DNA from: Thermoproteota archaeon
GTDB taxonomy: Archaea; Thermoproteota; Thermoprotei_A; EX4484-217-1
Length of the DNA: 64,000 nucleotides
Reading direction: 5' to 3'
Assembly: GCA_029258915.1 (NCBI GenBank)
Contig: JAPDJU010000005.1
Location: 62,001 to 126,000, forward strand
The position numbers were made by a program, and so were the translations under genes. This document shows, in pieces, positions 1 through 2,694 of the stretch. The notes beneath the pieces were generated by a model. The model was given only the letters and a program-made list of their open reading frames with translations. It did not search any database and had not been told where the DNA came from. Numbering within the stretch: the first letter of the stretch is position 1; each line of letters begins with the position of its first letter.

Positions 1-701
1 GCAAAAATCCTGCTATTACTGATAACTATGAAACCTATAAGAGGTGTTAACACACTAACGATACTTTCAATAGTCCATGGGAGATTGGGGATTATTGGAG
101 CTAAGTAGTAGTATCCTTTACTTATAATAATGAATATTATTGAGCAAGCAGCTCCACCCCAAAATACCAGGTATGTTAAGAAAAGGTTTAAAGCAAACAC
201 TGGCAGGAGCTCTGAGCTTAAATACTTTATAAGTTCAAGCCCGCCGGTTATGTAGGAAATACGAGCCATGTTAACATTTAAAAGTGTAAATAAAATTGAA
301 ATTCCCAGTAAGCTTGTAAAGCTTTGCACCGTTTTAGATGTTTTTTGTACAATAAATGTTCGAGCATATTCAAAACCAAGGGTTTTAGTAAGGAAAAAGT
401 ACATGTTAAATAGTAAACCATATATGCTCATAACATATGGTGAAAGCCCGAATCCTACAGCTAAACCTAAGAAGTTTCTTATAAAGATAGAAATAGTTGC
501 TATAATAATTACTAATGGTATCAATTTTTTACTTGAAAAAATACTAGCTCTAATGTTCGGATACGAGATAATGAACATAGCTATCCATACTACGGGAGGT
601 ACAAGATAGGCGGCTGTACCTCCTAGTTTTATAACATTAGCTAGTATGAAGCTTAGCATTAGTAGTAATGGTAGAACTATTTTAGCTGTCTTGGGGAACA
701 T
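1..701 (-). CDS. Polytopic membrane protein (N-terminal part), possible SipW-like signal peptidase
   Basis: Not in the ORF track because it runs off the left edge. I translated 233 open codons from an ATG at 701, preceded by a good ribosome site (GAGGAGGG). The visible part is almost entirely hydrophobic, with about six or seven membrane segments, and contains GFGLSPYVMSIYGLLFN followed by GFEYAR. To me this resembles the membrane domain of long archaeal S26-type signal peptidases. No catalytic Ser/Lys pair is visible, but the C-terminus is missing. It is the last gene of a minus-strand set with three proteins carrying SipW-type signal peptides, which fits a dedicated peptidase. Membrane protein: sure; peptidase: inference from context and a remembered family pattern. 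Confidence 0.6.
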   Translation of the reverse strand, partial: MFPKTAKIVLPLLLMLSFILANVIKLGGTAAYLVPPVVWIAMFIISYPNIRASIFSSKKLIPLVIIIATISIFIRNFLGLAVGFGLSPYVMSIYGLLFNMYFFLTKTLGFEYARTFIVQKTSKTVQSFTSLLGISILFTLLNVNMARISYITGGLELIKYLSSELLPVFALNLFLTYLVFWGGAACSIIFIIISKGYYYLAPIIPNLPWTIESIVSVLTPLIGFIVISNSRIF

Positions 702-735
702 TAATAGTTTCCCTCCTCTACACTGTTCAGCAACG

Positions 736-1320
736 TTATAGTGATGTTTTTATTGAAAAAACTACATTTAATTCGCCAGTACCATGATAGCCTCTATTTA
801 TCATTAACCTAGTTAGAATAAGAACTTTTTCTCCAGGACTAAAGGATACTGGCAAACTAGAGTTATGAGGTAAAGGTAGGCTTCCGCAGCAGACCATGTT
901 TTGTAAATTATGTCTTCCATGAATTCCGTAATAGAATAGCTTATAGTGAAAATGTTCCCTAATTTCACTGCTTCCTTCAGTAATTATAACATTAGTTCTA
1001 AGAATTCTTGCAGGAAGTGTTCCTCTATTGCAAACTACTATACCTACCCATCCAACCCAGCCTGGATGAAGATTTTCAAGGCTTATAGATAAAGCATTTC
1101 CATCTTCGCTAAGCTGAGCTGTTACATTACAGTGATGACAGCAGGTAAGTACTTTGTAATAGCAGATTCTAGTATCAAATTCTCCCATCGACATTCTCAT
1201 ATTTACGTTTAATGTTTCAGACCATAGGGCATAGGCAGTATTACTTAATACTATAAAAGATAAAATCATAACTAAAAGAACATATATGTAATGTGTTAAC
1301 TTAGCTCTCACCTTAAACAC
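736..1320 (-). CDS. TasA/archaeal bundling pilin-like secreted protein (third paralogue)
   Basis: A 194-residue secreted protein. A hydrophobic N-terminal segment (about residues 12-32) ends in SNTAYA followed by LWSETLNVNMRMSMGEFD, the same boundary as in the next two genes. The body looks beta-rich and has unusual Cys/His groups (TCCHHC, VCCGS). It is the most divergent of the three paralogues. Start is GTG at 1320; an in-frame GTG four codons later (VRAKLTHY) is an alternative. It lies 35 bp after the stop of the neighbouring paralogue and before the truncated membrane protein, so the four genes are probably co-transcribed. Likely a minor subunit, tip or anchor of an extracellular filament; that role is inferred. 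Confidence 0.6.
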   Translation of the reverse strand: MFKVRAKLTHYIYVLLVMILSFIVLSNTAYALWSETLNVNMRMSMGEFDTRICYYKVLTCCHHCNVTAQLSEDGNALSISLENLHPGWVGWVGIVVCNRGTLPARILRTNVIITEGSSEIREHFHYKLFYYGIHGRHNLQNMVCCGSLPLPHNSSLPVSFSPGEKVLILTRLMINRGYHGTGELNVVFSIKTSL

Positions 1321-1358
1321 CTTTTAATGAAGTAAATAAAAAAAGAGATTATGTTTTT

Positions 1359-2066
1359 TCACTCCTCGTAATATATCGATTCATTCCACTGTACTGCTAC
1401 AAGTTTTACTGAAATAACATATTCCGAGTTTTCACTGGCGGGCTGTAATACTATGATTCTCCAGCTGCTTTCTAACCCGTCTCCAGGATCCATTTGGACG
1501 CCGAGAAGATTGTAAAGCTGTATTAGTACTTCGGGTTTGCAGTCTCCATCAGCATCAAGAAATACGAGGTCGTTGGTTTCAATTTCGTCTTTTGTAAGTA
1601 TTGTTCCATTAACAACATAGTAGTCTATAAATATTGGTATCGTACCTACGTTATCTACTTCTAAGCTAAACCAAACCATGTATCCTGGATATCCATTGTG
1701 TATTTTAACATATGCAGTATCATTATCTCCATCTCCATCACTATCTACAGTCCATGCTGTAGCCCATGCGCAGTCTTTATCTAACTGCACCCAATATAGG
1801 TCACCGCTAATTACGGCTACCCAGCCTTCACCTGTATAGCTGAAATTTTCACACGTAGGCCATGTATCAGGTGTACCATTATAATCTTTGATTCCGGGTG
1901 GTGGTACTTCATCACCAGTGTATATTCTAACAATTTCAGCATCTACTTCTCCTGTGTTTACTGTCACATTTACTTTTAACGTTTCACTCCACATAGCAAA
2001 AGCAATACTGATAGATGATATTAGCACTAGAAAAATAGGAAGTATTATTAGTTTCTTAGGATTCAT
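1359..2066 (-). CDS. TasA/archaeal bundling pilin-like secreted protein (second paralogue)
   Basis: A 235-residue secreted protein with a SipW-type signal peptide (MNPKKLIILPIFL...SIAFA) and a mature start MWSETLKVNVTVNTGEVD. Acidic loops DSDGDGDND and DADGDC look like calcium-binding turns. In TasA, camelysin and the Pyrobaculum AbpA pilin, a jelly-roll domain polymerises by giving its N-terminal strand to the next subunit; the signal peptide and beta-rich body here fit that fold, but I could not run a structure comparison. A 67-bp stretch spanning the signal-peptide end and first strand is identical to the gene upstream, while the rest has diverged. The gap to the upstream gene is 25 bp, so an operon is likely. 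Confidence 0.65.
   Translation of the reverse strand: MNPKKLIILPIFLVLISSISIAFAMWSETLKVNVTVNTGEVDAEIVRIYTGDEVPPPGIKDYNGTPDTWPTCENFSYTGEGWVAVISGDLYWVQLDKDCAWATAWTVDSDGDGDNDTAYVKIHNGYPGYMVWFSLEVDNVGTIPIFIDYYVVNGTILTKDEIETNDLVFLDADGDCKPEVLIQLYNLLGVQMDPGDGLESSWRIIVLQPASENSEYVISVKLVAVQWNESIYYEE
1940..2006. repeat. 67-bp identical repeat, copy 1
   Basis: These 67 bases are identical to 2565-2631. The copy lies inside the second pilin-like gene and codes for the end of the signal peptide and the first mature strand (FAMWSETLKVNVTVNTGEVD). The bases directly on either side already differ, so identity stops sharply. Confidence 0.95.
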
Positions 2067-2091
2067 TATATTTTTGCCTCAGCGTATTTTA

Positions 2092-2694
2092 CTATGGAAC
2101 TTCGTTCCACTGTGCAAAGGTCATCTGTAGTTCGAAGAAGTATGTTGAGTTTTCTGTTGCGTTCTGTTTTACATGTATACAGAGTTCATATGTATCGAAG
2201 CTTCCAGGATCTATTTGTGTTCCATCATTATCAGGATCATAAGCTAATCCTAAATGAACATTAATGTCGGCTTTTCCATCATTGTCCAAGTCTAGATCAT
2301 ACCATGTGCAGCATGTTATTGGAATAACTGTTGTATCAAATTTTATAGATGCATTTAAGAATTTCACAGGTATTGTCCCTATGTTAGAAACGTTACCATA
2401 AATACCTACTTTATAGCATGGATAAGCATTATCTATAGTAACATTAAGCTTTATGAGATCATTTTCTGTATCCCATTCTTCAGGCTCAACAGTTACCGTT
2501 GTAACATCAAGAGGCACTTCAGGTTTTTCAATAGTATCATTACTCCAATAGTCACTCCACTCGACATCTACTTCTCCTGTGTTTACTGTCACATTTACTT
2601 TTAACGTTTCACTCCACATAGCAAAAGCAATTCCCATAGATGCTAACATTACGAGGGCTATAAAAACTCCTATTATAGATTTTCCTATATTCAT
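2092..2694 (-). CDS. TasA/archaeal bundling pilin-like secreted protein (first paralogue)
   Basis: The ORF track begins at 2778, but the likely start is the ATG at 2694: it gives a compact signal peptide (MNIGKSIIGVFIAL...GIAFA) and has AAGGTG upstream. The predicted product is 200 residues, with mature start MWSETLKVNVTVNTGEVD. Loops DLDNDGKADIN and DPDNDGTQ look like calcium sites, and there is a CC pair (ITCCTWYD). It is the first gene of the minus-strand set and probably the main subunit of an extracellular filament like archaeal bundling pili. The family link rests on the signal-peptide pattern and domain style, not on a search. Confidence 0.65.
   Translation of the reverse strand: MNIGKSIIGVFIALVMLASMGIAFAMWSETLKVNVTVNTGEVDVEWSDYWSNDTIEKPEVPLDVTTVTVEPEEWDTENDLIKLNVTIDNAYPCYKVGIYGNVSNIGTIPVKFLNASIKFDTTVIPITCCTWYDLDLDNDGKADINVHLGLAYDPDNDGTQIDPGSFDTYELCIHVKQNATENSTYFFELQMTFAQWNEVP
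2565..2631. repeat. 67-bp identical repeat, copy 2
   Basis: Second copy of the 67-bp block, at the same relative place and in the same frame within the first pilin-like gene. Identity in an otherwise diverged pair suggests recent gene conversion or strong constraint on this segment. Confidence 0.95.

Follow-up and report, generated by a model that had tools for sequence, protein, structure and literature searches.

Do three adjoining genes of a Thermoproteota archaeon, each encoding an exported protein with the motif WSETL just after its signal, build one extracellular filament, and to which known kind would it belong? The question is raised by the first genes of the window, by which we mean the whole stretch of 64,000 nucleotides analysed here (G000:C1:62001-126000, from a genome of 1.6 Mb that is 99.7% complete). 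The initial annotation had described three adjoining minus-strand genes whose hydrophobic signals end in A-x-A before M/L-W-S-E-T-L. This description is borne out for genes A, B and C, with the signal ends AFA/MWSETL in A and B and AYA/LWSETLNVN in C (the slash marks the cut). Calcium-type loops had been seen in two of the genes, and loops of the DxDxDG type are indeed present in A and B; a fourth gene, D, runs off the left edge as described and is polytopic in its N-terminal half (Table 1). The spacings, continuing to the gene after D, are short (25, 38, 34 and 15 bases), an arrangement as in an operon. An alternative start of A at 2778, giving 228 aa, was rejected, since the signal and a GGTG site agree with the start at 2694.

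Table 1. Features of the cluster, in window positions unless a contig or locus is named.
Feature	Position	Strand	Remarks
Subunit A, AbpX-like	2092..2694	-	200 aa; signal cut after A25 (AFA/MWSETLKVNVTVNTGEVD)
Subunit B, AbpX-like; carries an insert and two DxDxDG loops that are conserved	1359..2066	-	235 aa; signal cut after A24
Third subunit C	736..1320	-	194 aa, GTG start; Cys/His-rich loops (CCHHC, CC)
D, SipW-type signal peptidase, N-terminal polytopic half	3..701	-	runs off left edge of window
D, whole gene	G000:C1:61508-62701 = L009:9508-10701		397 aa
Identical 67-base tract, copy in A	2565..2631	-	signal end, cleavage site, donor strand
Identical 67-base tract, copy in B	1940..2006	-	signal end, cleavage site, donor strand
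Calcium-type loop DSDGDGDND of B	1719..1745	-	conserved in B family
Calcium-type loop DADGDCKPE, second in B	1530..1556	-	conserved in relatives
Calcium-type loop DLDNDGKAD of A	2266..2292	-	in insert that most relatives are without
Calcium-type loop DPDNDG, second in A	2221..2238	-	read from sequence

The window is placed inside a longer contig, and D could therefore be read past its left edge. As the annotation had anticipated, the cut gene is a full signal peptidase, the last third of which matches TIGR02228 (E 4e-24, over the cut-off) and, at E 2e-17, the SipW model of Bacillus. The catalytic dyad, however, is not the Ser/Lys pair that had been expected. The motifs SGSMQP, VHRI and GDANKEPD of the peptidase domain, which lies beyond the window, carry the SGSM, HR and GD(x)N features of SipW/ER-type S26 enzymes, and S277, H315, D334 and D340 are invariant among 14 homologues. 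With the SGSM serine, the HR histidine and two aspartates all invariant, D is an ER/SipW-type Ser-His peptidase. One other match to the model of its peptidase domain in the genome (G000:C4:84802) is likely the housekeeping signal peptidase.

The gene after D encodes a DUF5305 protein (PF17231, 1.6e-13), a family named in no paper found in the literature searched. SipW and DUF5305 apparently form a general pair, a polytopic SipW followed by DUF5305 being found also in Thermoplasmata (L010), Dehalococcoidia (L011) and Bacilli-type genomes (L013, L014, L015, L025, L026). To the left of the cluster lie an integrase-like gene seemingly in pieces (L009:3934-4714; G000:C1:55934-56714) and, beside a tRNA-Arg, a fragment like the N-terminus of a DNA cytosine methyltransferase (L009:7961-8179), both assigned by look only; they are possibly the remnant of an inserted element.

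The nearest solved relative of the subunits is AbpX of Pyrodictium abyssi. Residues 27-176 of A match the AbpX chain 9sj2_C with E 7e-10 and B matches AbpX with E 4e-5 (both phmmer), and AbpX is matched at E 1e-19 by a 43-sequence profile of the A family that was built without it. C reaches AbpX with E 0.01 only; profile-profile comparison ties it to the A family (E 2e-14) and to the B family (E 3e-12), and C is thus homologous to the AbpX kind through A and B. A related genome (G048, locus L071) encodes AbpX itself, identical in 163 of 163 residues and followed by a homologue of D. The precursor reads TYA/QWSETL and the deposited AbpX chain starts at that Q. The start of the chain therefore coincides with the A-x-A boundary of the precursor, and the cleavage site inferred for A, B and C matches that of their solved relative. 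In a second AbpX entry, 9rhp, the chain is circularly permuted and carries QWSETLSLSATISTG at the C-terminus instead; we read it as a self-complemented construct, the move of QWSETLSLSATISTG to the C-terminus marking this segment as the donor strand.

TasA, ABP and the ABPx of Pyrodictium abyssi are all described as donor-strand-exchanged fibres (PMC11952670). A kinship with AbpA and TasA had been proposed for the cluster; the filament kind is supported, but neither protein is reached by sequence. Searches with profiles of 13 and 43 sequences found no AbpA chain among PDB matches up to E 10 and no sequence match to TasA, and the Peptidase_M73/TasA models (PF12389, TasA/camelysin) matched none of A, B and C. 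Models of the PF12389 type scored weakly in one B relative (0.15) and in one bacterial SipW-linked relative (0.0018). Reached by neither profile, AbpA and TasA were rejected as sequence relatives of the three subunits. Matches to flagellin (0.05) and ammonia monooxygenase (0.004-0.08) were likewise rejected, because they cover short stretches and lack support from the signal or the gene context.

The calcium loops of B are kept across its relatives, and FG-GAP_3, a calcium-loop motif model, scores in 11 of 13 members; those of A sit in an insert that most relatives lack. We note that the A gene of G042 (L069:5000-5598) contains an in-frame TGA stop in the assembled sequence, with B and SipW open, and that several subunits bear a C-terminal extension (L065:6876-8132, L068:6008-7516, L092:3909-5300, L104:1724-3115). 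An SdrD_B-like adhesin domain occurs in the L092 extension and in one B relative; the extended proteins would be decorated filament subunits.

Structure models contributed little. The alignments were limited to sequences from the window and related loci and were consequently thin, and AlphaFold gave a pLDDT of 67.8 (moderate) for B and 57.1 (poor) for C. Residues 28-37 of B, just after the cut, have low confidence in the monomer model, which is compatible, weakly, with a free donor strand. Foldseek searches with these weak models yielded no convincing match, the hits being generic beta-sandwiches with TM-scores of about 0.15-0.4, and AbpX was not in the top 50; the TasA fibre 8aur, at rank 39 for C, was treated as no evidence.

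The cluster recurs across the archaeal class. A, B and C can be aligned along their length, and the A family is found in 66 of 197 genomes; this mutual homology and spread argue that the cluster is not due to chance. At 55 of the 64 best A-family places the same strand carries a long polytopic SipW no more than 6 kb away, downstream in 54. Of the nine places without one, at least four are at contig ends, and G104 and G112 appear to be truly without it. Conversely, an A gene stands beside 55 of 59 long SipWs, and a long SipW beside 28 of 36 DUF5305 genes. Among the loci read across the class the order A-B-(third)-SipW-DUF5305 is recurrent, and A adjoins B in nearly all of them. Six loci also have a winged-helix gene, roughly 200 aa long, just upstream of A (L064:3532-4242, L066:9473-10084, L067:4291-4893, L069:4348-4950, L070:4330-4932, L111:4730-5353), identified in L067 as HTH_45 (PF14947, 3.7e-17) and in the others by look only; in the window no winged-helix gene adjoins the cluster.

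Set beside known systems, the locus is closest to that of AbpX (Pyrodictium abyssi, 9sj2, 9rhp), which shares homologous subunits, the mature x-WSETL start and an adjoining polytopic SipW-type peptidase. The AbpX locus, however, lacks DUF5305 and has a single subunit gene, whereas here there are three subunit genes and calcium loops, and A and B, unlike AbpX, have a C-terminal QWNE strand. AbpA of Pyrobaculum calidifontis has the same proposed mechanism and an archaeal surface setting, according to papers that cite it (PMC9674648, PMC11952670), but is reached by no profile here, and a relation would be by fold only. The TasA/TapA/SipW system of Bacillus subtilis resembles the present one in its SipW-type peptidase, an aromatic P2' residue, an N-terminal donor strand and an accessory protein sharing that strand (PMC9674648, PMC10151520, PMC10269814); it differs in offering no sequence match and in its gene order, and D has an extra polytopic half and a DUF5305 neighbour. 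The thread of Sulfolobus acidocaldarius (Saci_0406) is another archaeal filament with donor-strand complementation and a putative cap gene beside it, but its subunits belong to another family and the part of the paper available notes no dedicated SipW (PMC9715654).

It is in the donor strand, too, that A and B of one genome are especially alike. In the window they share 67 identical bases over the signal end, cleavage site and donor strand, and the codon is shared at 20 of 20 identical residues inside this tract but at 28 of 54 outside it. Identical tracts of 58 and 55 bases occur at the same place in two other genomes, and wherever A and B share a stretch of at least 20 bases it lies at the donor strand (10 of 10 genomes). 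In a co-variation test over 36 genomes (window excluded, permutation within families), which was prompted by the window pattern and in part by sequences inspected beforehand, with segments chosen by motif, the A-B identity of the donor segment was 0.600 within a genome versus 0.470 with other genomes of the same family (p < 5e-5). The corresponding values were 0.472 and 0.460 for the core segment, and 0.364 and 0.359 for the C-terminal strand. The own-genome excess spans W-4 to about W+16, is gone beyond W+18, and persists without the most extreme genomes; positions W+6 to W+13 alone give 0.649 versus 0.530 (p < 1e-4).

We consider it likely that the operon A-B-C-SipW-DUF5305 makes an extracellular donor-strand filament like that of AbpX. 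The three subunits would be exported by Sec and cut after A-x-A by the Ser-His peptidase D, exposing a mature N-terminus x-W-S-E-T-L. The strand from about W to W+16 would then leave its own domain and complete the beta-sandwich of the next subunit, so that the proteins polymerise into filaments that may bundle. A and B would copolymerise as body subunits, either alternating or mixed, since a single groove has to accept the strand of each, and C would be a subunit of the TapA sort, minor or terminal. The calcium loops of B (and A) may bind calcium and stabilise the fold, and DUF5305 may anchor or assist at the membrane. A filament with up to three subunit types had been suggested at the outset: three types are there by anatomy, and that they share one filament is what we infer. 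Since the Pyrodictium abyssi AbpX locus has a single subunit gene, not every such filament needs B and C.

Might the three proteins instead be calcium-binding components of the cell surface or S-layer, exported but not polymerising by donor-strand exchange, and resembling AbpX only in fold and signal type? No filament has been observed, and SdrD_B-like adhesin domains are found in some relatives of B and of the third gene. We nevertheless regard this as very unlikely, given that the homology begins at the first mature residue, the W being part of the donor strand in AbpX, and that the SipW pairing is that of the TasA and AbpX loci. Nor do we think it probable that the shared strand reflects only recent gene conversion between neighbours, devoid of functional meaning. 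The identical tracts of three genomes and the codon agreement within the window tract are what conversion would leave, but in the other genomes (window and L103 left out) the same-codon share at identical residues is no higher in the donor strand than in the core (0.469 versus 0.505). Most of the A-B similarity is therefore kept at the protein level, with DNA conversion in a few genomes, and these codon counts led us to reject conversion as the sole cause for most genomes.

A more serious, though still rather unlikely, alternative is that A and B assemble into homopolymers of their own or are used at different times, and owe their similar strands to common descent and a common peptidase. AbpX does form a filament alone, from a locus with one subunit gene, and the cleavage-site positions W-4 to W+5 also co-vary within genomes; selection by the common peptidase could explain part of the co-variation, that nearest the cut. 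Sensitivity of LepB to TasA residues maps to P3-P4' (PMC10269814), however, and the excess reaches W+6 to W+13, past that zone, before stopping at W+18, which makes the common peptidase a harder explanation there; A, moreover, adjoins B in nearly all loci. The simplest functional reading of these sequences would be that one and the same acceptor groove has to accommodate the strands of both A and B. We tentatively propose a mixed pilus, in which A and B may keep an interchangeable donor strand through protein-level co-evolution and occasional gene conversion, and the third gene may encode a plug on a replaceable body that caps or starts the filament.

This role for the third gene draws on its variation. 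At many loci a gene between B and SipW has the same signal and W-strand. In the window it is C, with the donor strand type of A and B and without their C-terminal QWNE strand; C-type genes with Cys/His-rich loops are found also at L093:1516-2157, where the gene adjoins B, L099:3523-4140 and L100:3714-4313. The clustered loops of these proteins follow the donor strand (CCHHC, CTGCCHGC, CCGCCCCHH, HHHCGC) and are a possible metal or disulphide site. Elsewhere the W-strand is joined to an unrelated PRSKGYW...LKAQLLAVWLN body (L072:6168-6770, L075:3826-4464, L078:3584-4174, L081:3098-3661, L109:3429-4037, L110:2185-2781), in which the signature YP...NxGTxP is absent and which, in the proteins tested, had no Pfam and no meaningful NCBIfam match. 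Such a protein has a donor strand without an acceptor domain and could consequently stand at only one end of a filament. In Bacillus, TapA has N-terminal residues resembling those of TasA and is the proposed giver of the first donor strand (PMC10151520, PMC9674648). The third gene, be it a Cys/His-rich relative or an unrelated body fitted with a donor strand, suggests a terminal subunit, and C of the window would be such a terminal or minor subunit.

In sum, the cluster is, as judged from its sequences, of a known kind, that of AbpX/TasA-type donor-strand filaments, and would be set apart by its multi-subunit make-up and co-evolving donor strand. Descriptions of TasA/ABP-type filaments mostly show a single body subunit, joined in Bacillus by TapA. 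The widespread archaeal version provides a parts list of two conserved body subunits, a variable third, a peptidase of its own and a DUF5305 partner. The shared, evolving plug sequence of A and B suggests a mixed thread, and their donor strands bear on how filament composition may be controlled without a chaperone-usher machine.
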